Source: Bombella sp. ESL0385 | GTDB lineage: Bacteria > Pseudomonadota > Alphaproteobacteria > Acetobacterales > Acetobacteraceae | Assembly: GCF_009725755.1 (NCBI RefSeq) | Contig: NZ_WNIJ01000001.1 | Coordinates: forward strand, 1,240,001-1,304,000 | DNA: 64,000 bases | Direction of reading: 5' to 3' | Part shown: piece by piece, positions 46,448-58,514 of the stretch | Layout of the letters: the number at the start of each line of letters is the position of its first letter | Numbering within the stretch: position 1 is the first letter of the stretch | The notes under the pieces: model-generated | The model's database searches: none | Told to the model about the DNA's origin: nothing | What the model saw: the letters and a program-made list of their open reading frames with translations, nothing else | Program-made: the position numbers and the translations under genes

Positions 46448-47914
46448 TCACGGCATCGTCTCTTGCGGCTTCGAGAGCCATCCCCCCGTAAATCCGGCTT
46501 TCTCCAACCCTGCACGGATATAACGGTTCTTCCGCATCACCTTCCATACAAAGCCGCTGCGTAGATTCTCAATCATCAGCAAAATTGGCCCTTGATCAAT
46601 ACCAAGCTGCTGCTCATCCACCCAAAACCCATCCTTCGTCTCAAAACTTGGGTTAAACGCATCCAAAAAACCATATTGATTATAAATCCGCGCCCCGTAG
46701 CGTTCCTTCATCGCTTTTAGCGCAGGCAGCGTAATTTCCGGCGCAAACGCAACGGACCCACCTATGGCCGTTGGGGCAATCGTACCATCATCTAAGACAT
46801 AATCGCGCCCCGCCCCACGGGCACTATAAGCCATAAAATGCCGCTTCTGCCCATCGACCTCACGCTCAGCCTCACCCGGCCCATCGGAGGCCGTTAAGCC
46901 CCAGACATTCTCGTCATATCCCCGCCAATGGCCCGGATTATGCACGGCATAATCCCGCTGCGCATAAACAGCCTCACGACTATTCTGGAAGTAATCGTAC
47001 CCGCGCTCACGGCTCGCTTTATCGCGAATATCACGGAAATCGACCCACGATTCGCTATATTGATGCCCAAATAATGGCGCGAAATTAAGGAGGTGATGCC
47101 CGTAAAACTCCCCTTGCTGTCCTTTATGCGTCTCCGTCCAACGGTCCCATGTTTCCGCTGGCAGAGCATGAGATGGGGCCCCTAACGCCATAACATACAG
47201 CATCAGCCCCTCATTATAGCCTTTCCATTCCGCAGAGAGGAACTTATCAGGCGGCATCCACCCCATGCTCAACCAAGAGCTTTTACCGCCTGTCATCCAA
47301 CGCCAATTCACACGGCGATAAAGCTTATCCGCTAATGCCCGAATCTCACGCTCATCAGCATTATGTCCATCATAATAGGACTGGGTGAATAACACCCCAG
47401 CCATCAATAAGGCCGTATCAATACTCGAAAGTTCCGACCAATCTGCCACGCGCAAACCGGTCTCAGAATCTAAGAAATGATAGAAAAACCCACGATACCC
47501 CGCCGTCCCATTCACCGCGCGCCCTTGCGGTAAAGAGAGAAGAAAACGCAGCGTGACCAAACTGCGCTCCACAGCCTGCGCCCGTGTGATATAGCCACGC
47601 TCCACACCAATGCCATAAGCTGTCAAACCAAAGCCAACACTGGCAATACTCGCCGCCCCATGCGGCAAAGGCGCACGGTCTGGCACCAACCCATTGCGCG
47701 GATTCGCCGTCTCCCAAAACCAATTAAAGGTCCGATGCTCTACCTCCTCAAGGAAAATATCATGAGAGGAAAGAGAGGCCCTAGAGGACTGTACTGCCGA
47801 GGATGCCGCATAAGACGTTGAGGGGATCATACACCCTCCCCCCACACATGCTGCTATCCCTACATATAAGAAACGCCACACGAATGAGCGTAAAACGACA
47901 CGGGACTCCGTCAT
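46448..47914 (-). CDS. Secreted glycoamylase-like (GH144-like) protein
   Basis: A 488-residue protein with an N-terminal signal peptide (FVWRFLYVGIAACVGGG, cleavage probably after TSYA). The mature part is a glycoamylase-like alpha/alpha barrel: FNWFWETANPRNGLVPDR, ASVGFGLTAYGIGVERGYI, FYHFLDSETG and WSELSSIDTALLMAGVL. These motifs are shared with bacterial PF10091 proteins, including GH144 endo-beta-1,2-glucanases. So it probably cleaves a glucan in the periplasm or outside. The exact linkage cannot be read. It lies at the left edge of the glycan island and may process or degrade a related polymer. Confidence 0.82.
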   Translation of the reverse strand: MTESRVVLRSFVWRFLYVGIAACVGGGCMIPSTSYAASSAVQSSRASLSSHDIFLEEVEHRTFNWFWETANPRNGLVPDRAPLPHGAASIASVGFGLTAYGIGVERGYITRAQAVERSLVTLRFLLSLPQGRAVNGTAGYRGFFYHFLDSETGLRVADWSELSSIDTALLMAGVLFTQSYYDGHNADEREIRALADKLYRRVNWRWMTGGKSSWLSMGWMPPDKFLSAEWKGYNEGLMLYVMALGAPSHALPAETWDRWTETHKGQQGEFYGHHLLNFAPLFGHQYSESWVDFRDIRDKASRERGYDYFQNSREAVYAQRDYAVHNPGHWRGYDENVWGLTASDGPGEAEREVDGQKRHFMAYSARGAGRDYVLDDGTIAPTAIGGSVAFAPEITLPALKAMKERYGARIYNQYGFLDAFNPSFETKDGFWVDEQQLGIDQGPILLMIENLRSGFVWKVMRKNRYIRAGLEKAGFTGGWLSKPQETMP

Positions 47915-48143
47915 ACTCTCTTATCCTCCCATCAAATCGCCTCTCTATGAAAAAACAAACCCCGCCACACCACAAGGACCAAATGGTCTCCCCCAAGGAG
48001 GAAAGGTATAAAATAAGATATATAATTATTTAATTAAATATAAACCATATATTAATGTATAATTAGACATATAATTTTTCTTCTTGAAGTTAAAAATATA
48101 GAGTATATTTTAAGTATTACGTTTTATTTATAGAAGGTTAATA
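47915..48143. other. AT-rich divergent intergenic region, left edge of the glycan island
   Basis: 229 bp between two divergent genes. The right 140 bases (about 48000-48140) are almost all A and T, unlike the rest of the window, and must hold the promoter of the mutase gene. AGAAGG precedes its ATG. The other side holds GGGAGGA for the glycoamylase-like gene. Confidence 0.6.
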
Positions 48144-49298
48144 ATGAAGTTCTGCGTTATTGGTGCTGGCTTTAGCGGGACCATCATTAGCCGTCATCTC
48201 GCCCTACATGGTCATGACGTTCTCCTATTAGATGAACGCCCACATCTCGCAGGTAACTGCCATACATCGCGTGACCCGAGCAGCCATATTATGCTTCACC
48301 ATTATGGGCCACATATCTTTCATACAGCCCATCATCATGTTTGGGAATTTATAACGCAATTTGGTACATTTCGGCCCTATATTAATCGGGTCAAAGCCAT
48401 AGCTCAAAATCACGTCTTTTCTTTACCTATTAATTTGATGACCATAAATCAATTTTATAAAAAGACACTAAATCCTCAAGAAGCAGAACAATTTATCTAT
48501 AATATCGCTGACAAAACAATCAAAAATCCTTCCAATTTTGAAGAACAAGCAATCTCCCTCATCGGAAAAGACTTATACAATACCTTCTTCCGAGGCTACA
48601 CACGCAAACAATGGGGGATGGACCCTAAGGAGCTTCCTGCTTCCATCCTAAAAAGGCTACCAATACGGTTCAATTATGATGACAATTACTTTAACCACCC
48701 TTATCAAGGGATTCCAGAGCAAGGCTATACAGCCCTTATTAACTCTATGCTGCTCAACCTCCCTATAGACATCCAACTCAATACAAGGTTTGAAGATATT
48801 CCTTTCAAAAATCAATTTGACCATATCTTCTATACAGGACCACTTGACCGTTACTTTAACTATGCCTACGGCCGTCTACCCTATCGCACATTAGATTTTG
48901 AAAAATATGAAGGCCTTGGTGATTACCAAGGCACAGCCGTCATCAATTATTGTGATGAAGCCGTTCCCTACACACGCATCGCCGAGCATAAACATTTCAC
49001 CCCATGGGAGGCACCACATCTTAAAAAGACCGTTTGGTTTCGGGAATATAGCCGCCTCGCTCAAGCTGATGATGCGCCTTATTACCCTATACGGCTTGCT
49101 CATAAGAGCCAAAACCTAGCCCATTACATCCAAAAAGCACGGGCGACCCCTCATGTGTCCTTTCTAGGACGACTCGGCACTTATAGATATTTAGATATGG
49201 ATGTCACAATCAACGAAGCCCTTCAGGCCTGCCAGAAGATAGACCACGCCCTAAAGAGCGATACGCCTATCCCCAGCTTTTTTATAGACCCGTCCTAA
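48144..49298 (+). CDS. glf: UDP-galactopyranose mutase
   Basis: A 384-residue flavoenzyme that interconverts UDP-galactopyranose and UDP-galactofuranose, the donor for Galf-containing glycans. The FAD site is VIGAGFSGTI at residues 5-14; HHYGPHIFHT, the conserved GYTRKQWGMDP and RLPIRFNYDDNYFN are UGM-specific, as is PYTRIAEHKHF. Codon use is more A/T-rich than in the dcw cluster, which suggests acquisition by transfer. It converges with the GT2 gene, 6 bp apart. Confidence 0.96.
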   Translation: MKFCVIGAGFSGTIISRHLALHGHDVLLLDERPHLAGNCHTSRDPSSHIMLHHYGPHIFHTAHHHVWEFITQFGTFRPYINRVKAIAQNHVFSLPINLMTINQFYKKTLNPQEAEQFIYNIADKTIKNPSNFEEQAISLIGKDLYNTFFRGYTRKQWGMDPKELPASILKRLPIRFNYDDNYFNHPYQGIPEQGYTALINSMLLNLPIDIQLNTRFEDIPFKNQFDHIFYTGPLDRYFNYAYGRLPYRTLDFEKYEGLGDYQGTAVINYCDEAVPYTRIAEHKHFTPWEAPHLKKTVWFREYSRLAQADDAPYYPIRLAHKSQNLAHYIQKARATPHVSFLGRLGTYRYLDMDVTINEALQACQKIDHALKSDTPIPSFFIDPS

Positions 49299-49304
49299 AA
49301 GAGC

Positions 49305-51230
49305 TTAACTATGCAAGGTCAGGCTTCCAGCCCGCTCCATCGGAATAGTATCCAGAATATAACGCCACTCCTCCCGCAAGCGCGATGCGACATCAGCTTC
49401 CTCAATCATATCCAACAGATAATTCAGCCGCTCCTCCCACGCATAGCGGACGATATTTTCAGCATCTCGCAAGGCAGGTACACGGCGGAGACGTTCCAAT
49501 TCATTCCGTGTTGCATGTTCACGCAATAAAATATTCTCATTTACCGCGGTGGATGTATCCTCAAGCTGCGTGATGTAAGAGTTCGCCCAATAATCAGCAT
49601 AACGCTCAACACCGAAGGAAATCGCACCATCTAGCCCGCTATTACGCGCATATTTCCAAACCCATTCCACAATAGATTTAAAATAATAATGCGAGACATA
49701 GATTTTATCGAAATACCCGTGGTCAGAGAAAGCAGGGTCCCGCCCGATCCCCGGCGGTGGGTTGCGATATTCATGCAAACCGCCATTAGCCAACCGGTAA
49801 GTAAAGGAATCACCATGCCAAGCCAGTGGGTTATGCGGGCGTGATTGCAGCACGCTATGAGGCCGACAGACTGTCTTAACAAGACGCCATCCCTCACCAA
49901 CACGCCCATGAGACACAATCACCCTATTACGCTGTGTCAGCGGGATTGTAAGGTCGGAGAAACCATTCTGATTCACTTCAGACGAGATAAACTGCCAATT
50001 AAGCGCGATAGCATCGGCATCCCATCGCTCCATGCCTTTTAAATAATCTTGTACCCTATCAAACATCGGCGATAATGTTATGAACTCATCCCCATCAAGG
50101 ATAAAGCTCCATTCATAATCCAAAATATCGGGCAAAATATTCAACGCATGTCCATATGCTTTTAACTGCGCTGAATCCCCTAACGAGACCTTATTATCAA
50201 TATATGTAATGATACCTTCATGATGTAAGGCTTTTAACAAAACATCAGATTGGTCATCATTATCATTACTATAGATAAAGAAATGCTCAACACCGATATT
50301 TCTATGATAGGCAATCCATTCTAATAGATAAATACCCTCATTGCGTACTGTGGAAAGCAGGCACACTTTTTTACGCGGCTGGATATGGCGGCGCATATAA
50401 TGCACCAGCATTTGTAAAAAGCCTTCCGGGGCCCCAACCACACCGTAAGTCAGCCTTATATTACCCTCATCACAGACCAAAGAGGCGCGTGATGCAGGAC
50501 GACCCTCATCATCCCACGCAACCAAAGCCTTAATAGCCTCGACCCAGAAGCCCTCTTTCACCTTCTGCCCCAAAGCCCCTAATAGAGCCTCATCCTTAAA
50601 GAGCAGGGCCGCAAAGGCGCGCATATCCGCCGCCCGCATGAAAGGAAAAACGGCATCCAGCACATGCTGGAGGCACGGCCCCTCATAAGTGAGAATCAAT
50701 GTGCGTAATGCGTCTGGCCTCAAAGCTTGCCGGAAATGCCCCGCTAAGGCACGACCAAGCTCCAGCAAGCTCCCCTCAGGCTCTACTGGACAGAAGCGGA
50801 ACTGCTCCCACCCCTTCATCTGCACGCAATCACCGAGGAGATGGTTAACACCCTTTGTATAAGACCATGCGTGCGTTGTGCAGAAACGCTCTTGTACAAA
50901 AACGCTCTCTAACCCCGCATATTCCCCACTTTCTACCGTTTTAATGCGGCGAAAAGGAATCACTGTGCCTTTATAGAGGAACTGATCCACCCATAGGACA
51001 GAAGGCATTGTACCTTCCTCCATAGGGGGCTCTGCTGTTAAGAATGCATAATCAGGCCATTGTGGGAATACCACACACAATAATGGGCGATAGAGTGACG
51101 TACCATCCTCTGCGCGCGAGACCATCTCATCACAACGCACATGGCACACCGCACCGTCTGCCTGCCTCACAGCTAGCCAGCCTCCGTGGGCAGTTTCCAA
51201 ATAAAAAAAACTTCCCCGGTCTGCTTTCAT
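49305..51230 (-). CDS. Large glycosyltransferase, GT2-type catalytic domain with N-terminal extension
   Basis: A 641-residue protein. From about residue 285 it matches GT2-type enzymes of the Glyco_tranf_2_4 group: KVCLLSTVRNEGIYLLEWIAYHRNIGVEHF, then FILDGDEFI with the acidic metal site D379-G-D381. The first 280 residues are not a known domain; they open with FFYLETAHGGWLAVRQADG and contain GWEQFRFCPV at 140-149, echoing the WE(R/Q)F motif of the three small island proteins. The ATG at 51230 is set by AGAAGG 9-10 nt upstream; a TTG at 51239 is less likely. It has no signal peptide. Confidence 0.85.
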   Translation of the reverse strand: MKADRGSFFYLETAHGGWLAVRQADGAVCHVRCDEMVSRAEDGTSLYRPLLCVVFPQWPDYAFLTAEPPMEEGTMPSVLWVDQFLYKGTVIPFRRIKTVESGEYAGLESVFVQERFCTTHAWSYTKGVNHLLGDCVQMKGWEQFRFCPVEPEGSLLELGRALAGHFRQALRPDALRTLILTYEGPCLQHVLDAVFPFMRAADMRAFAALLFKDEALLGALGQKVKEGFWVEAIKALVAWDDEGRPASRASLVCDEGNIRLTYGVVGAPEGFLQMLVHYMRRHIQPRKKVCLLSTVRNEGIYLLEWIAYHRNIGVEHFFIYSNDNDDQSDVLLKALHHEGIITYIDNKVSLGDSAQLKAYGHALNILPDILDYEWSFILDGDEFITLSPMFDRVQDYLKGMERWDADAIALNWQFISSEVNQNGFSDLTIPLTQRNRVIVSHGRVGEGWRLVKTVCRPHSVLQSRPHNPLAWHGDSFTYRLANGGLHEYRNPPPGIGRDPAFSDHGYFDKIYVSHYYFKSIVEWVWKYARNSGLDGAISFGVERYADYWANSYITQLEDTSTAVNENILLREHATRNELERLRRVPALRDAENIVRYAWEERLNYLLDMIEEADVASRLREEWRYILDTIPMERAGSLTLHS

Positions 51231-51314
51231 GCCTGACAACCCTTCTGCATTCTTACCACACTAATCTCGCTTTTTTATCTTGGCACCTTTATCAGGTATT
51301 GGTATTGTTTGGCT

Positions 51315-52208
51315 ATGCAGACATTACCTCTCCCATCGGCTGGCACCATTCCCATCGTTCTAGGCCTAAGCGAAAACTTCGCGCCTTACGCCTATACTAC
51401 CATACAATCCGGGTTAGACAATATTCTTCCCGGGGTTCGTTTGGCCTTTTACCTATTCCATGAGGGGATGTCCGAGGCGGTGCAAAATATTGGCCGCGCC
51501 CTCTTTAACACGGACCGCTCAGAGATCCATTTCGTGGATGTCAGCGAGTGGATGAACAGGCATAATCCTTCTTACTTGGGCCATGCCTCGCGCCCTACTT
51601 TCTACCGCCTTGCAATCCCAGAGCTGCTGCATAATTTTCCGCGTGTTATCTATCTTGATTCTGACATCTTTATGCGGCGTTGCCCGAGCTTACTTTATTA
51701 TTCCATCCATAAAGATGCCCAAATTGGGGCCACACGGGACCTTTTGATGATCCCTGCTCAGCATAATGGCTTCCGCCTCCCGCAAGAAGTCGCTGGGGGA
51801 CCTCCTTTAATTGATTATCATCGCGGCGCGCTTGGGGTTCAAAACTCTGATGACTATTTCCAAGGTGGTGTGCTGGTTATCAATATCAACAAAATTACAG
51901 AGCATCAGGTCAAAGAATGTGGTGCATTATGTGGTACGCTCTTTTGGATGATGGACCAAGATATCCTTAATCGCATCTTCTATGGCCGTGTTTGTTTTAT
52001 TCATCCCAATTGGGATGTTTGCTGGGGGCCGGGATGTGAAGAAGCAAGTGAGAATCTGCCCGACCATTGGCGCGATCTCTACCAAGAGACCTTAAAAGAC
52101 CCATTTGCCATCCATTATACCGGCTTCCCTAAACCATGGAATGGATGGGATGGTCCTTACACCGATGATTACCGTAAAACGCTCGAACGCGTTATGGTAC
52201 GCTTCTAA
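51315..52208 (+). CDS. Glycosyltransferase family 8
   Basis: A 297-residue retaining GT-A enzyme of the LgtC/GT8 type. The metal-binding DxD is in VIYLDSDIFMRRCP, and the C-terminal His motif is AIHYTGFPKPWNG; PIVLGLSENFAPYAYTTIQS opens the fold. Such enzymes add galactose or glucose to LPS or capsule. A TTG at 51309 is an alternative start. It is closed by a strong terminator and is transcribed against its neighbours. Confidence 0.92.
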   Translation: MQTLPLPSAGTIPIVLGLSENFAPYAYTTIQSGLDNILPGVRLAFYLFHEGMSEAVQNIGRALFNTDRSEIHFVDVSEWMNRHNPSYLGHASRPTFYRLAIPELLHNFPRVIYLDSDIFMRRCPSLLYYSIHKDAQIGATRDLLMIPAQHNGFRLPQEVAGGPPLIDYHRGALGVQNSDDYFQGGVLVININKITEHQVKECGALCGTLFWMMDQDILNRIFYGRVCFIHPNWDVCWGPGCEEASENLPDHWRDLYQETLKDPFAIHYTGFPKPWNGWDGPYTDDYRKTLERVMVRF

Positions 52209-52219
52209 GATCTAAGACA

Positions 52220-52255
52220 ACACCCCAGAGACATCATCTCTGGGGTGTTTTTTTT
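52220..52255 (+). terminator. Rho-independent terminator after the GT8 gene
   Basis: A perfect 12-bp stem, ACACCCCAGAGA with TCTCTGGGGTGT, a 5-nt loop and eight T bases. It lies 12 bp past the stop. Confidence 0.95.
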
Positions 52256-52317
52256 GCCCTTAACACCACCCCTTTCATAATTCCTTTAAAACTATGAAAG
52301 GGTATGTATCGCTGCAA

Positions 52318-52959
52318 TCAGTCTTCCAACGGCACGTCAGAACGTGTCACTGTTAGCTTTATCTGGTCGCTCTCTGGGCTAAGCAACAGCACATCCACAG
52401 ACTTACCCGGCGGAATCTCACCAATCTCAGCCAGCTTCTCAAGATTCCGAGAAAGAGCCACTTTATGCTCGCCGAGCCAGAAGTAGTTCCCGATATTATG
52501 GGCAACATCCGGCCATGTCAGGCCGCTCACCGGCTTACCATTAATCTTCAACTCAGCAAAAGAGCCATCAATAAAAATGGAGAAAGCATCCATCATGGGC
52601 TTTGTCAGAGGGATGAAACGTTCCCAATCCAACAGGTAGCCAGCATACCAGTGTGTATCTTCGTTGCTAGGGTTAATGGAGAGGAATGTCCCCGCAGCCC
52701 CTTGCGTTTGAAGCCCAACAATATGCTTACCAGCCTCCACAAATTGTGCCTCTGGTAAACCTTGAGGGATAGAAGATGTCCGGCGCAGCATTACACGTGA
52801 CGGCGTTTGCACGGGCCAAGAAGAAATCATAAACAAATCAGGATATTCACACGGTGTCAGAAACTGACGACGCAAATCCTTCCGGTCGGCATCATAATTT
52901 AGAACATGGCCGAACCAATCCATAAGCCATACACGTTGCAAAGCATCAAAATCAGGCAT
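52318..52959 (-). CDS. Island paralogue A, about 215-residue family of unknown function
   Basis: A 213-residue protein I do not recognise from any named family. It shares with the proteins at 54116 and 56821 the N-terminal pattern (R-V/I-W-F/L-L/M-D-x-F/Y-G-H-x-x-x-Y), FLSIN at 92-96, WERFIPLT at 112-119 and a similar C-terminal beta-rich end (VDVLLL, IKLTVTR). FLSIN plus WE-x-F is the spacing seen in fascin-like beta-trefoil repeats, so a lectin-like fold is a guess. There is no signal peptide. The start at 52959 has AAGGA 7 nt upstream. It is the most divergent of the three and has no GT32 directly downstream. Confidence 0.8.
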   Translation of the reverse strand: MPDFDALQRVWLMDWFGHVLNYDADRKDLRRQFLTPCEYPDLFMISSWPVQTPSRVMLRRTSSIPQGLPEAQFVEAGKHIVGLQTQGAAGTFLSINPSNEDTHWYAGYLLDWERFIPLTKPMMDAFSIFIDGSFAELKINGKPVSGLTWPDVAHNIGNYFWLGEHKVALSRNLEKLAEIGEIPPGKSVDVLLLSPESDQIKLTVTRSDVPLED

Positions 52960-53070
52960 AGACATTTCCTTCACTGAAGATAGGACATACGCCAACAGGC
53001 GTACACTCTCTTAACAGGCTTTACCAGAATCCTAACAAAACATCAAAAAAAGATGCGCACTACACTCCAT

Positions 53071-54111
53071 TTATAATGCAGCGGGGTTCTGCACTATAGG
53101 TGAGATAGACGCAGAATAATGCACGCGACCTGTATGCTGCTCATGCCCGCCTCTCTCACCAACGGTTGTATATTCCACGCCGTTGCTTAAACTATGAATA
53201 TGACGGACTGGTCCCTCGTGAGCATAAGCCTCAATCATACGCGAATACATAATAGGGCCTGTCAGCACCAACGTACCATGCCGCCCAGTCCCCTGCATAT
53301 CCGGCTGATAAACCCGCAATAAACACATCACCTGATGGATAATACGCCGCATTAAAGGATGCCCAGACGCGCAGATGATATAATATTGCTCATACTCGCC
53401 ATAGGTCATATGCTGAACTTCGGGATGTTGACGCGCCCCATGCCACCATTGCGAGACCAAGAAGCGATCCTCAGGCTTAATAATCGTACTAAGCGGTGCT
53501 GCGATAACGGATTTTAAATCCACATAAACACCACCTACCGCGTATAAACATAAGTACCGGAACAGGTCAGCTTTCGCCGCACCATAATCAGGATGAATAG
53601 CCTGATAATATTCGTAAACCTCCTCGCTATAATAATCCAAGAGGAACTTTTTTATGTCAAAAAACCCACCATCAGACCAATAAAAATACTCATATTCTGA
53701 ATTTAAATGAATGAGCTGTGCGCGGTTTTCACGAAATATTTCGGGGTATTCTCCCGGATCACCCAAACCAATACCAATCTGATGAATATTCCTCTCAACC
53801 CCTCCATTAAGAGGCCGCTCGGCTACAGGGTCTGGAAGGATGGAAGGGTCAATCTCCTGAAAAATCTCATTCTTCCTTGGTGATGCAACATGCGTAACAC
53901 TCATATCATGGGCAAAAGAGAGGCAACCCTTCTCTGCATGTTGAAAAACATACCGCCCATTTGCCACATACTGACGCACATAGCCTCTTGCTTCTAACTC
54001 CTCTTGCGTGAGGGGGTGTGCCTCATCCTTATCAAACCAAGAACATAAATGGCGTTGTACAATCTCCCCATCATGCAGGGCGATATAAGTCCCCAGATAC
54101 CCAACGAACAT
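53071..54111 (-). CDS. GT32 (OCH1-like) glycosyltransferase B
   Basis: A 346-residue enzyme with the sugar-binding DXD-type domain of OCH1/GT32 transferases from about residue 105: NIHQIG, NSEYEYFYWSD and AKADLFRYLCLYAVGGVYVDLKS. The usual D-x-D is D198-L-K here. The first 95 residues are an extension shared with the protein at 57480 (MFVGYLGTYIAL; EKGCLSFAHDMS; IDPSILPDP). I start at 54111: GGAGGG is 8 nt upstream and this matches the paralogue's start; the frame is open to 54180. It lies 4 bp after paralogue B, so they are co-expressed. Confidence 0.88.
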   Translation of the reverse strand: MFVGYLGTYIALHDGEIVQRHLCSWFDKDEAHPLTQEELEARGYVRQYVANGRYVFQHAEKGCLSFAHDMSVTHVASPRKNEIFQEIDPSILPDPVAERPLNGGVERNIHQIGIGLGDPGEYPEIFRENRAQLIHLNSEYEYFYWSDGGFFDIKKFLLDYYSEEVYEYYQAIHPDYGAAKADLFRYLCLYAVGGVYVDLKSVIAAPLSTIIKPEDRFLVSQWWHGARQHPEVQHMTYGEYEQYYIICASGHPLMRRIIHQVMCLLRVYQPDMQGTGRHGTLVLTGPIMYSRMIEAYAHEGPVRHIHSLSNGVEYTTVGERGGHEQHTGRVHYSASISPIVQNPAAL

Positions 54112-54115
54112 GGCC

Positions 54116-54772
54116 TTAGCCCTCCCCCACGATAGGTTGCAGACGGGTTGCTGTGATAATGCAATGCCCTTTCCCCTCATAAAGGGGTAAAGAGAGTGTT
54201 ACAGTTTCATTCACACCCAAACGTCCCAAAGCCGCAAAGGCGGCTCGGCTTTCCTTTAAATCAATCCGGGCATCACCCAGCAGTGCAGTATGGAACTCAG
54301 ACGCACCCCCTACAGGAAACACTAATTCCCTTACTCTTTGTCCTGTAGAGGCTAGTCGTACTTCGCCAATATCGGGGTTTGTCATTAAAACCAACCCTTG
54401 GAACATATCATGCGTAATAGGTAAAAAACGCTCCCACCCATTAAGCCCAACGACAAGAGGCGTTTTGTTATTATGAACGTCAATAGAAAGATATTCGCCT
54501 GTTAATTTCTTACGCAAAGTTACAAAATCATCAGATGTACGTTCTAACAAAAACTCTGGCACCTCTAACGGGCTCCCTGCACTCCCCCACCATGTCGGCA
54601 CAGAGGAGATTGGCAATGGATAAGGCAGAGCCACAAATCCCTTTAATAACATCCCTAATATCGGAACGCGCGCCAGCCCTTTGTAATAAGGAGCGTAACA
54701 TAGAACATGCCCGTAAGCATCAAGGAACCAAATACGCTCAAAAGAGACATTAAAAGCGTTTTTTATCGACAT
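54116..54772 (-). CDS. Island paralogue B, about 215-residue family of unknown function
   Basis: A 218-residue protein of the same family as 52318 and 56821. FERIWFLDAYGHVLCYAP at 11-28 matches the copy at 56821 closely (FERVWFLDCFGHIIGYAP). YLSID at 94-98 and WERFLPIT at 113-120 follow, with a C-terminal LGVNETVTLSLP. It has no signal peptide or membrane segment and so is cytoplasmic or exported with a partner. The ribosome-binding site of the downstream GT32 gene is inside its last codons, so translation is probably coupled. No catalytic motif is visible. Confidence 0.85.
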   Translation of the reverse strand: MSIKNAFNVSFERIWFLDAYGHVLCYAPYYKGLARVPILGMLLKGFVALPYPLPISSVPTWWGSAGSPLEVPEFLLERTSDDFVTLRKKLTGEYLSIDVHNNKTPLVVGLNGWERFLPITHDMFQGLVLMTNPDIGEVRLASTGQRVRELVFPVGGASEFHTALLGDARIDLKESRAAFAALGRLGVNETVTLSLPLYEGKGHCIITATRLQPIVGEG

Positions 54773-54819
54773 TTAAAATCCTTATTACCCTACTATTCTA
54801 ACACATAGCGATATTGTGC

Positions 54820-56664
54820 TTATTGCACGGCTAAATCATCAGGCGAAACATCTTTCTCTTTTACAGAGGAAGGCCCTTCATCCTGCTCTGAAACTGATGC
54901 TTCGTGCAATTCACGCAGCTTCTTTTGATACAAATCCTTGAGATACTGCCCAGCCCTTAAATAAACCACACGACCAAAATGATCATAGGTGTGAGCATCC
55001 TCAGGGGATTGGATGAATTGGTCAAAATTGACACAACGCACATTCGGGAACTCCTCAGAGACCTCATACTGCCAGAATGCCACCGTATTATGCCGCTCTA
55101 AAATCCCAGAATCTGGATATAAGTCCGGCACCTTAGACGGCAAGGTAAACAACACAACATCACAGTGAGCAGGAACTTTACGCAAAATAGCCCTTAGATT
55201 CTCCTTATGTCGCTCCTCATCAATCACACCTAGGGGCCGTAGATTCGCTTTTGCAAAGCGATAATGCCGCAACTCAGAACGTGGACCCCCCATCCTCAAG
55301 AAGTCATCTTCATAAAACTCTTGAAAGTTACCGTATGCTACCTGCGGAGGGCAATAAGTCGCCGTATGCTCACTATCGGGCAAACGGTAAATCTGGAATC
55401 CAGCATCAGCCCAAAAACTAAAAACAACAAGTCCCCAAGCGGCATCTTCTAATGGCTTTAAGGAGGGGAAGAAATCCTCCGCTTGATAACCACATTGCCG
55501 CAGAGTTGTTTTTTCCTGCTCGCAACCTTCCACACTAATACGCACCATAGAGGAATGGTCCCGCCGGATAAGGAAGCCATGGCGCACCGTATTTGTAAAA
55601 ACGGTAATATCGCTAGAGCAATCCTTCACATAATGCCGAATGGAATCAACATCACATCCGCCACCCATAAGAATGGGATAATCCGCTTGCTCAAGAGGGA
55701 CAGCCTCCCCGTCACTATCAAAGGATGTGAGCTGTACCCAATCCACGGGGGCTGTATCTGTAGTCGGGTCATTTGCGACCTCGCCTTGTACCTCAAGATA
55801 AGGTTTACCTAGATAACGATAAACCCATGTCTCAATATGCATCCCCAATGTACGGCAGGAAAAGCAGAAATGCACAAGGAAGTTATCCGTTGCATTTTGC
55901 ACGACATGGAAAAAACCAACAATCCCATAATCGCCGTAATTATCCCGGACACGCACCACCGCCATATGGTTGAACGTGCCTGTATGCTCTACCATCCGCT
56001 CTACATCATAAAGGGCTTCCGCTTTATTCTCTGAGAGCCTCTTTTTTGTAAAGTTAAGCTGATTCGTCCGATTGAGCAGCTCGGCAACACGCTCTTTATG
56101 GTCTGTCAAATCATAGATAATTTCGACCTGTATATTACTCTTTCTAAGAAACTCATAATCATCAAGAGCAGCATCACCATTTCCTTCACGGTCTGCATAT
56201 TTCTGCTCTTGCAATTTATACTGTTTAAGACGTGTTTTTTCTTTATCATCTTTGCCCTTAAAAAGGTCAGACTCTAATATCTGGGCTATAAAATGCTCAT
56301 CCTCAACCTGAATACCGGGGCAGGCTTGACGCACTTCCTCACGATTAGTGGCATTATCATCAATGAACATAACCGCCTCTGGGCGAAGCTGCATTTTTTG
56401 AATAATCTCAGCAACACGTTTACCTTTGCTGGACCAATCAATACTGGGAAACACAAAGTGATCCCACACACCCATAGCCTCAAGCTGCGTTTTGACAGAT
56501 TCAAAATCATTTTTTGAACAAATCGAGTTCATAATGCCGCGCTCCGTTAAAGAGACGACAATCTCCGAAGAATCACTTCCCGCAATGATGCCCTCCTCGG
56601 CTAATGTACCTTTCCAAAAGGTCTCGTCCATGTCCCATATTAGCAATCGAACTGCTTCACTCAT
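54820..56664 (-). CDS. FkbH-like HAD-IIIC protein with C-terminal SGNH/DUF6270-like module
   Basis: A 614-residue three-part protein. Residues 5-135 are a HAD-IIIC domain with D11-M-D13-E-T15 and MFIDDNATNREEV near 99-111. Residues 175-295 are the FkbH-type acyltransferase-like part: NRTNQLNFTKKRL, DNYGDYGIVGFF and CRTLGMHIE. In polyketide systems FkbH loads glyceryl groups from 1,3-bisphosphoglycerate. Residues 330-614 look like a DUF6270/SGNH-type module (GGGCDVDSIRHYV at the start, DHFGRVVYL at the end). ATG 56664 has AGGA 7 nt upstream. A glyceryl or acyl decoration of a glycan is the likeliest role, by inference. Confidence 0.8.
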   Translation of the reverse strand: MSEAVRLLIWDMDETFWKGTLAEEGIIAGSDSSEIVVSLTERGIMNSICSKNDFESVKTQLEAMGVWDHFVFPSIDWSSKGKRVAEIIQKMQLRPEAVMFIDDNATNREEVRQACPGIQVEDEHFIAQILESDLFKGKDDKEKTRLKQYKLQEQKYADREGNGDAALDDYEFLRKSNIQVEIIYDLTDHKERVAELLNRTNQLNFTKKRLSENKAEALYDVERMVEHTGTFNHMAVVRVRDNYGDYGIVGFFHVVQNATDNFLVHFCFSCRTLGMHIETWVYRYLGKPYLEVQGEVANDPTTDTAPVDWVQLTSFDSDGEAVPLEQADYPILMGGGCDVDSIRHYVKDCSSDITVFTNTVRHGFLIRRDHSSMVRISVEGCEQEKTTLRQCGYQAEDFFPSLKPLEDAAWGLVVFSFWADAGFQIYRLPDSEHTATYCPPQVAYGNFQEFYEDDFLRMGGPRSELRHYRFAKANLRPLGVIDEERHKENLRAILRKVPAHCDVVLFTLPSKVPDLYPDSGILERHNTVAFWQYEVSEEFPNVRCVNFDQFIQSPEDAHTYDHFGRVVYLRAGQYLKDLYQKKLRELHEASVSEQDEGPSSVKEKDVSPDDLAVQ

Positions 56665-56820
56665 CCCCACATCCTAACCCCGTACAGAAAGAAGGCTTTT
56701 TACAACCCTCTCACCTACGGCACACAAAGTGTAACGCTCTATCTCCGTACAGTATAAACTTTTTCTCAAGAATGAGGAAATAATCTTATAAAGAATCATA
56801 AAAAGTTCTATAGTCTTGTG
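56665..56820. promoter_or_regulatory. Divergent promoter region of the two paralogue/GT32 cassettes
   Basis: 156 bp, AT-rich, between the minus-strand FkbH-paralogue B-GT32 genes and the plus-strand paralogue C-GT32 genes. It must hold both promoters. I cannot assign firm -35/-10 boxes. Confidence 0.45.
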
Positions 56821-57462
56821 ATGATGCAGCATAGCTCACCTTTTTTTGAGAGAGTTTGGTTTCTGGATTGCTTTGGGCATATCATCGGCTATGCTCCCTC
56901 TCAGGGCCGCCTTATTCGTACGCCCTTCCAAGGGACGCTAACCAATGGCTTTGTACCCTCCCCCTTCCCCATTCCGCTAGAAGCGGAGCTTACATGGTGG
57001 ACCCTTTATGGGGAGCAACTACCCATTGAGCCTCTGATTATGAAGAAAATCCGCAGAGGTCTGGTTAAATTGCAGAAGAAAGGGGCACAAGAATTTTTGA
57101 GCATCAATCCACGTTCTGATGACCTAGGCTTTGTAAACGCCGTAAATGCGTGGGAGCAGTTTCTCCCTGTGACAGAGCAAATATTGCAAGGGCTTTCCCT
57201 CATCAGTGACCCTGATATGAGCACTATTTGTGAGGCAACATCAGCGCAACATGTGGGGCATTTCTCTTTTTTACCCCCTAGTGAAAATAAACCAGGCTGC
57301 GGGCGCATCGGGGATCATATAATCAATATTTATAACAATCTCTCTAGCCTCTCTGCTTTATCCAGCATTCAAGAGGGTGAGATGCGCACAATCTCTTTAA
57401 CAAATGATGAAGATAACGCCATCAGTCACTTCACCCTCTCCTGCCGCTCGGTCAAACCCTAA
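56821..57462 (+). CDS. Island paralogue C, about 215-residue family of unknown function
   Basis: A 213-residue member of the same family as 54116 and 52318. FFERVWFLDCFGHIIGYAP at 8-26, FLSIN at 92-96 and WEQFLPVT at 111-118 align at matching positions. A GTG at 56818 and a second ATG codon make the exact start uncertain; no clear ribosome-binding site is seen. The GT32 gene starts 17 bp downstream. No signal peptide, no known catalytic residues. The pairing with GT32, repeated at 53071-54772, suggests the two proteins work together. Confidence 0.85.
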   Translation: MMQHSSPFFERVWFLDCFGHIIGYAPSQGRLIRTPFQGTLTNGFVPSPFPIPLEAELTWWTLYGEQLPIEPLIMKKIRRGLVKLQKKGAQEFLSINPRSDDLGFVNAVNAWEQFLPVTEQILQGLSLISDPDMSTICEATSAQHVGHFSFLPPSENKPGCGRIGDHIINIYNNLSSLSALSSIQEGEMRTISLTNDEDNAISHFTLSCRSVKP

Positions 57463-57479
57463 GCGAAAGGGCCTGCATC

Positions 57480-58514
57480 ATGTTCCTTAGCCGCCTTAAT
57501 ACTTATATTGCCTACACCACCGAGAGGCTAACACAACAGCATGTTTGCGCTTACAGCGATGAAAACGCTCTCCCTCCTGCCTCTGAGCAAGAGATGGCAA
57601 AGCATGGCTATGTGCTTAAAAATATGGGCAATAATCAATGTGTCTTTACCCATCCTGAAAAAGGAAACCTCGTTCTCCATCCTGATATGTCCATGGCTCA
57701 CCATAGCAATATGCTCAGTGCCGATAGCTATGTGCGTATCATTGACCCTAATATACTTCCCGCCCCGCCATCAGCCGTAACGCCAGCCACCCAAATTGCA
57801 AAATATATCCACCAAACAGGCAAAGAGGCTGAGTTCCCCGAATCGTTTCGGCAAAATCGTGATAATCTGATTCTTCTCAACCCAGATTATGACTTCTGCT
57901 ATTGGTCCGACCAAGGCGGCCGTACTATTCATGAGTTTATAGCAGAGCACTATGGTCACGATGTTTTACAATATTATAACGCTATAAACCCTCGCTACGG
58001 AGCCGCACGAGCCGATCTTTTCCGCTATCTTTGCCTCTATCAGCTTGGCGGCGTGTATTTGGACCTTAAATCAACAATCGTTGTCCCGCTGCATACAATA
58101 ATTCATCCTGACGATACAGCCTTATTATCTTTCTGGCCACGTGTCAGTACGGAATATCCTGAGATTCAGCATGTTAAATATGCGGGAGAATATCAACAAT
58201 TCTTCCTTATCTACGCAGCAGGGCACCCTCTATTGCGGCGTATTATTCATCAAACATTATGTAATATTAAGCTTTATGACCCTTTCATCCATGGTGTCGG
58301 CCTGCAAGGGACGTTCCTAACCACGGGGCCTATTATATATTCCCGTATTCTCCACAGCTATCGCACACCGCACAATGCACGGCTTTTCCATGCGTTAACA
58401 AGTGGTGTTGAGTATAATATTTTCTCTCACGAGGCTCATTACGCCAAAATTGGGCCAACGCATTATACGCGCCAAGACACCCCCCTCATCCTCAACCCCG
58501 AATCACTCCCTTAA
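57480..58514 (+). CDS. GT32 (OCH1-like) glycosyltransferase C
   Basis: A 344-residue enzyme paralogous along its whole length to the one at 53071. The N-terminal extension (MFLSRLNTYIAY; EKGNLVLHPDMS; IDPNILPAP) covers residues 1-97. The catalytic part has YIHQTGKEAEFPESFRQNR, DYDFCYWSD and ARADLFRYLCLYQLGGVYLDLKS at 177-198, with D195-L-K in the DxD position. GHPLLRRIIHQTL lies further on. Donor and acceptor are unknown. It ends the island, and a hairpin spans its stop codon. Confidence 0.88.
   Translation: MFLSRLNTYIAYTTERLTQQHVCAYSDENALPPASEQEMAKHGYVLKNMGNNQCVFTHPEKGNLVLHPDMSMAHHSNMLSADSYVRIIDPNILPAPPSAVTPATQIAKYIHQTGKEAEFPESFRQNRDNLILLNPDYDFCYWSDQGGRTIHEFIAEHYGHDVLQYYNAINPRYGAARADLFRYLCLYQLGGVYLDLKSTIVVPLHTIIHPDDTALLSFWPRVSTEYPEIQHVKYAGEYQQFFLIYAAGHPLLRRIIHQTLCNIKLYDPFIHGVGLQGTFLTTGPIIYSRILHSYRTPHNARLFHALTSGVEYNIFSHEAHYAKIGPTHYTRQDTPLILNPESLP

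Follow-up and report, generated by a model that had tools for sequence, protein, structure and literature searches.

Three related proteins, here called copies A, B1 and B2, are encoded in a glycan island of Bombella sp. ESL0385, within a 64,000-nucleotide stretch of contig NZ_WNIJ01000001.1 (positions 1,240,001 to 1,304,000, hereafter the window). On balance, we favor the reading that they are stand-alone, cytoplasmic glycan-binding modules, each with a single sugar site, that work in trans with glycosyltransferases (GTs). This reading draws on the predicted fold, a sugar-site motif of the CBM92 type, gene order, and the fusion of the same fold to GTs in relatives.

An Acetobacteraceae family with a predicted trefoil and a single W-E-x-F site

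The three open reading frames (ORFs) can be aligned over their full length; 28 columns are invariant, pairwise identities are 27.0, 24.6 and 31.6%, and the proteins share three motifs (in copies A, B1 and B2, respectively: RVWLMDWFGH, RIWFLDAYGH and RVWFLDCFGH; FLSIN, YLSID and FLSIN; WERFIPLT, WERFLPIT and WEQFLPVT). This confirms an earlier note on this DNA, which had described three related proteins with common motifs; its start for copy B2, 56821, is the second codon, the first being 56818. A profile of the three proteins matched four places in their own genome, one of them a fourth copy (G000:C1:48255) absent from that note, as well as 48 of 397 Acetobacteraceae genomes (E ≤ 0.001), and the family is therefore real. 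Copy A has a relative with 90% identity in Bombella saccharophila and Parasaccharibacter apium. As the note had also stated, the proteins match no nameable family: a Pfam scan of the three copies returned nothing at E ≤ 1, and 45 members gave only scattered single matches, one member each, to nine Pfam families (best E 0.023) and three NCBIfam families (best E 0.024). The family, spread over part of the Acetobacteraceae, thus has no entry in either database, and a literature search found no publication on it or on W-E-x-F trefoils carried by GTs. The 45-row alignment and the tree leave out the broken copy L077, the contig-edge copy L060 and identical or near-identical copies, and the tree also leaves out L054, L056, L102 and L115-L117.

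The N-terminal half of the family proteins is predicted to be a beta-trefoil of the fascin/FGF/CBM92 kind. In the AlphaFold2 model of copy B1, fold matching placed one trefoil within the 218 residues, with 9-17% identity to the fascin, FGF1 and Symfoil trefoils over the aligned part. The fascin-like trefoil suggested earlier is thus supported by prediction and fold comparison, for the N-terminal half of the protein only. Lobes of the fascin type are found in the window family as well, whereas fascin consists of four tandem trefoils and the window proteins have one; fascin, FGF1 and the designed Symfoil also differ in function from the role proposed here, and we know of no W-E-x-F sugar site in any of them.

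Each of the three copies carries one W-E-x-F (52615-52626 in copy A, 57151-57162 in copy B2), and in the copy B1 model W113-E114 sit on a short turn preceding strand 116-120. In CBM92, according to PMC11039641, the Trp of this motif forms the stacking contact with a glucosyl unit, whose O3 and O4 are bound by the Glu, and the two residues lie in the loop that leads into strand beta-4 of a subdomain; the same paper describes some members without the Trp at some of the three sites, and uptake of sophorose, and also of gentiobiose and glucose, by CBM92B crystals. The window family resembles CBM92 (Chitinophaga pinensis CpCBM92A/B; PDB 7zoh, 7zoi) in its predicted beta-trefoil, in the position of W-E-x-F at a lobe end, on the turn that leads into the final strand, and in that the trefoils of its fused relatives, like CBM92, are appended to carbohydrate-active enzymes. 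Binding of beta-1,6-glucan is a criterion for CBM92, whose three repeats each have a W-E-x-F, as opposed to one in the window proteins. CBM92 modules occur on hydrolases, of which roughly half are exported through the type IX system, whereas the window proteins stand alone, have no hydrophobic N-terminus and possess an additional C-terminal domain. Their fused relatives carry GT domains instead, and the Pfam tallies for these contain no hydrolase family. Because the three-site architecture and the hydrolase context are both lacking, the family is CBM92-like by motif and predicted fold and not a member of CBM92. W-E is present in 42 of 56 family members, including 17 of 18 GT32-operon copies, all 20 mutY-linked copies and all three copies from genus g30; the presumed sugar site is single, CBM92-like and lost in some branches.

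Fusion and gene order link the trefoil to glycosyltransferases

The family profile was also matched inside long ORFs, and in 11 of these the same trefoil forms one end of the protein, N- or C-terminal. Ten of them were scanned with Pfam (GT2_4/GT92, three; GT8, two; GT61, one; none at E ≤ 0.01, four). A profile of the fused trefoils matched that of the stand-alone family at 98.3% probability, and its top match in the PDB was CBM92 (E 1.5e-11), with W-E aligned in all three lobes. Across 150 Acetobacteraceae genomes it gave 53 matches in 29, 37 in frames of at least 430 aa and 16 in frames below 300 aa, stand-alone copies of other genomes among its matches. Among 35 long proteins outside the seed, Pfam identified GT2_4/GT92 in 18, GT61 in seven, GT90 and GT8 in two each, and WcbI and a methyltransferase in one each. 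In the window itself, the GT2_4 protein at 49305 has an N-terminal stretch, absent from the earlier note, that aligned with the fused-GT trefoils at 77.9% (E 1.8e-5, hhalign) and with the stand-alone family directly at 12.5% only.

Gene order links stand-alone copies to GTs in some lineages. Copy B1 lies 4 nucleotides upstream of its GT32, if the latter starts at ATG 54111, and copy B2 17 nucleotides upstream of the second GT32. At eight loci (seven Bombella genomes and one Saccharibacter), all ten B copies are followed, after 4-18 nucleotides, by a GT32 gene in the same orientation, and in the remaining three Bombella genomes that gave matches B and GT32 adjoin by coordinates. Six of the eight loci show the same-strand order A, B, GT32, PF10091, and three of these also have a GT8-cluster gene immediately before A in the same orientation, while the GT8 gene of the window is convergent with copy A. 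In the tree, copy A falls in a clade of eight GT32-operon copies, one per locus, and the B clade comprises ten copies. The B and GT32 trees have four closest pairs in common, which fits a joint duplication in the lineage of the window. Of 11 Bombella genomes, ten have both B and GT32 and one (G350) has neither, its PF10091 gene adjoining the phosphoribosyltransferase gene as an empty site. Elsewhere, family copies lie beside GT2_4-cluster genes in two g30 genomes, in one of them also beside a GT8-cluster gene. The proposal that the family pairs with GTs is supported for Bombella, one Saccharibacter, two g30 genomes and the fusions to several GT families, and is not supported as a general rule.

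Opposing observations and other explanations

Several observations weigh against a glycan-binding partner of GTs. Foremost, the gene immediately upstream, in the same orientation, is mutY at all 36 fetched loci outside the GT operons and the pirin clade, and this goes part of the way toward refuting the consistent pairing with GTs in other genomes that had been envisaged. This count covers the fetched loci, 36 in 36 genomes, a subset of the genomes matched by the profile; it omits L114 (the same gene as L072, on a truncated stretch) and includes the broken copies L077 and L116. The W-E pair is found in none of the seven pirin-linked Bombella copies and in two of the eight mutY-hemH copies, so part of the family appears to do without the site, and in one GT32-operon copy (L065:8121) R replaces the W. 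A second, more distant GT32 in six Bombella genomes has no family match beside it, and GT32 relatives in g61 have no adjoining family gene. The closest pairs common to the B and GT32 trees are mostly those expected from the species tree, and the deeper branching is weak or discordant. No solved fold matched the C-terminal domain of copy B1, the N-terminal domain of the GT32 proteins was not significantly similar to the trefoil (4.4% and 1.2%), and the fused-trefoil profile had no match in the genome of the window at E ≤ 1e-4. Finally, in all 13 GT32 proteins examined (the two of the window and those of L041, L061-L065, L070, L112 and L113), GG[VI]YxDLK stands in the place of the DxD of GT32/Och1, the second acidic residue being lysine (DxK), and for this reason GT32 activity itself is unproven.

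The majority of the examined family is mutY-linked. At the 36 loci (for example L042, L046, L098 and L104), less than 160 bp or so separates the family match from the end of the match to mutY, which has HhH-GPD and NUDIX_4 domains (Pfam), and the genes on the downstream side vary (catalase, photolyase, ferrochelatase). In the pirin clade (seven Bombella loci: L039, L066-L069, L071 and L078), mutY is 2.7-2.8 kb upstream, separated from the family gene by three genes that include lysR and pirin. These flanking genes, like the phosphoribosyltransferase gene, were named by eye, with at least one member of each confirmed by Pfam and the remaining members assigned by BLAST clustering. The mutY position looks ancestral, and the GT-linked copies would then be derived; the family tree is midpoint-rooted only and its deep forks are weak. 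In two genomes the family gene behind mutY is in two pieces (L077:2187-2785 and L116:6587-7191). The constancy of mutY despite differing downstream flanks could mean that the protein is a housekeeping component of the mutY operon, with a DNA repair or other core task, the GT-linked copies having arisen by duplication and strayed into a glycan locus. We consider this improbable, as co-transcription alone can preserve gene order, the trefoil is fused to GTs, and the W-E sugar motif is retained in all 20 mutY copies of the tree.

Tight pairing of B and GT32 genes and the same closest pairs in both trees would also be expected of a scaffold or stability factor, a subunit that GT32 requires for folding or anchoring and that binds no sugar, its W-E being kept for structure. 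The B copy that lacks the Trp and the conservation of the C-terminal domain together with the trefoil fit such a role, but the pirin clade retains the Phe of the motif in seven of seven copies while W-E is lost, which suggests that the fold can form without W-E, and the trefoil recurs on several GT families; this explanation is rather unlikely. A regulatory protein, sensing a glycan or sugar in the cytoplasm and turning the linked GT on or off, would likewise account for the gene pair with GT32 and for a single binding motif next to a separate C-terminal domain. No known regulatory fold was found, and we regard such a regulator as very improbable, although the present data do not separate sensing from acceptor holding. 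For the earlier proposal of carbohydrate-binding partners, the CBM92-type motif and the GT pairing of some lineages speak in favor; the binding itself is inferred, and GT pairing as a rule for the whole family is not supported.

Proposed mechanism and ligand

As glycan-binding partners, the proteins would act as follows. The N-terminal trefoil, with its one CBM92-type Trp-Glu site, would grip a glycan in the cytoplasm, and the C-terminal alpha/beta domain is the presumed docking part. Copy B, encoded just before GT32 and probably on the same transcript, may hold or orient the growing acceptor glycan, probably by a beta-glucosyl end, perhaps of beta-1,2-glucan, and GT32 would add a sugar with its help, as would GT8 with that of copy A. 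This role may be likened to that of the Ricin-B/CBM13 trefoil lectin domains of ppGalNAc transferases, which steer a GT to its acceptor and have a QxW motif in their lobes. Those domains are fused in cis and are eukaryotic, whereas the window copies stand alone, and Q-x-W is absent from the three window sequences. In systems of the streptococcal GtfA-GtfB type, a non-catalytic partner binds the acceptor for a GT in trans, as proposed here, but that partner has a GT fold and the window family a trefoil.

Beta-1,2-glucan as the acceptor is no more than a fair guess, drawn from the close relation of the PF10091 neighbor to XcSGL (537 bits), the presence of MdoG/OpgG in nine of nine Bombella among 13 genomes searched (own genome included), and the uptake of sophorose by CBM92B crystals. 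XcSGL is described in PMC12102758 as a beta-1,2-glucanase solved with Sop7. The PF10091 gene is next after GT32 in six of the eight loci and at the island edge in the other two (the window and L070), and since it stays at the empty site, the enzyme does not depend on the cassette. By eye, the PF10091 protein (46448-47914) has a likely signal peptide.

If the favored reading is true, it gives a function to an unannotated family of honeybee symbionts and acetic acid bacteria, provides a case of a GT served in trans by a carbohydrate-binding module, and makes one W-E-x-F a simple predictor that GT2, GT8, GT61 and GT90 fusions, and the partners of GT32, bind an acceptor. A puzzle that comes with it is why most copies remain fixed behind mutY. 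A broader extension, offered tentatively and with more doubt than confidence, is that Acetobacteraceae reuse a cytoplasmic glycan-grip, a CBM92-like trefoil with one site, in cis on GT2/GT92, GT61, GT8 and GT90 and as a trans subunit for GT32, so that carbohydrate-binding modules serve intracellular polymer synthesis and not only breakdown outside the cell, the Bombella subunit-GT32 pair decorating beta-1,2-glucan made by Opg.

The glycan island

The island (46448-58514) encodes a PF10091 protein, UDP-galactopyranose mutase, a GT2_4/GT92 protein, GT8, an FkbH-domain protein, two GT32 proteins and the three family copies. Its G+C content (0.43-0.48 in 2-kb windows, 48001-58000) is below that of nearly all of the remaining window.

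Table 1 Features of the glycan island, in window coordinates
Feature	Position	Strand	Basis
Copy A of the family, predicted beta-trefoil plus C-terminal domain	52318..52995	-	ORF (225 aa from first TTG), end-to-end alignment, tree clade
Copy B1 of the family	54116..54772	-	ORF (218 aa), AlphaFold2 model, B clade in tree
Copy B2 of the family	56818..57462	+	ORF (214 aa), tree
Predicted beta-trefoil domain of copy B1, residues 9-122	54407..54748	-	Structure match of AlphaFold2 model
Predicted C-terminal alpha/beta domain of copy B1, residues 123-218	54119..54406	-	Model
W113-E114-R115-F116, CBM92-type W-E-x-F motif of copy B1	54425..54436	-	Model and motif search
GT32-like glycosyltransferase beside B1	53071..54111	-	PF04488 E 6e-11, weak Och1 match
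GT32-like glycosyltransferase beside B2	57480..58514	+	PF04488 E 4e-12, tree
GT2_4/GT92-type glycosyltransferase, trefoil-like N-terminal stretch ending GWEQF	49305..51239	-	PF13704 and PF01697
GT8 glycosyltransferase	51309..52208	+	PDB relatives WbbM, LgtC
FkbH-domain protein between the two B-GT32 units	54820..56670	-	TIGR01686 E 3e-48
UDP-galactopyranose mutase	48144..49298	+	Family scans
Beta-1,2-glucanase homologue (PF10091)	46448..47914	-	PF10091; 537 bits to XcSGL 8xul

Both GT32 proteins score above the curated cut-off of PF04488. The longest ORF of the one beside B1 begins at 54180, and the ATG at 54111 was taken as its start from alignment; it has a 100-aa N-terminal domain and GGVYVDLK where DxD is usual. 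Related FkbH-domain-type proteins occur among family copies in Bombella and g30 (54820-56670 in the window; L045:13238-15001). The island arrangement of the window recurs in Parasaccharibacter apium and B. saccharophila (L006 / L005 near 5514), and L070 has one more GT8-cluster gene than the window island.
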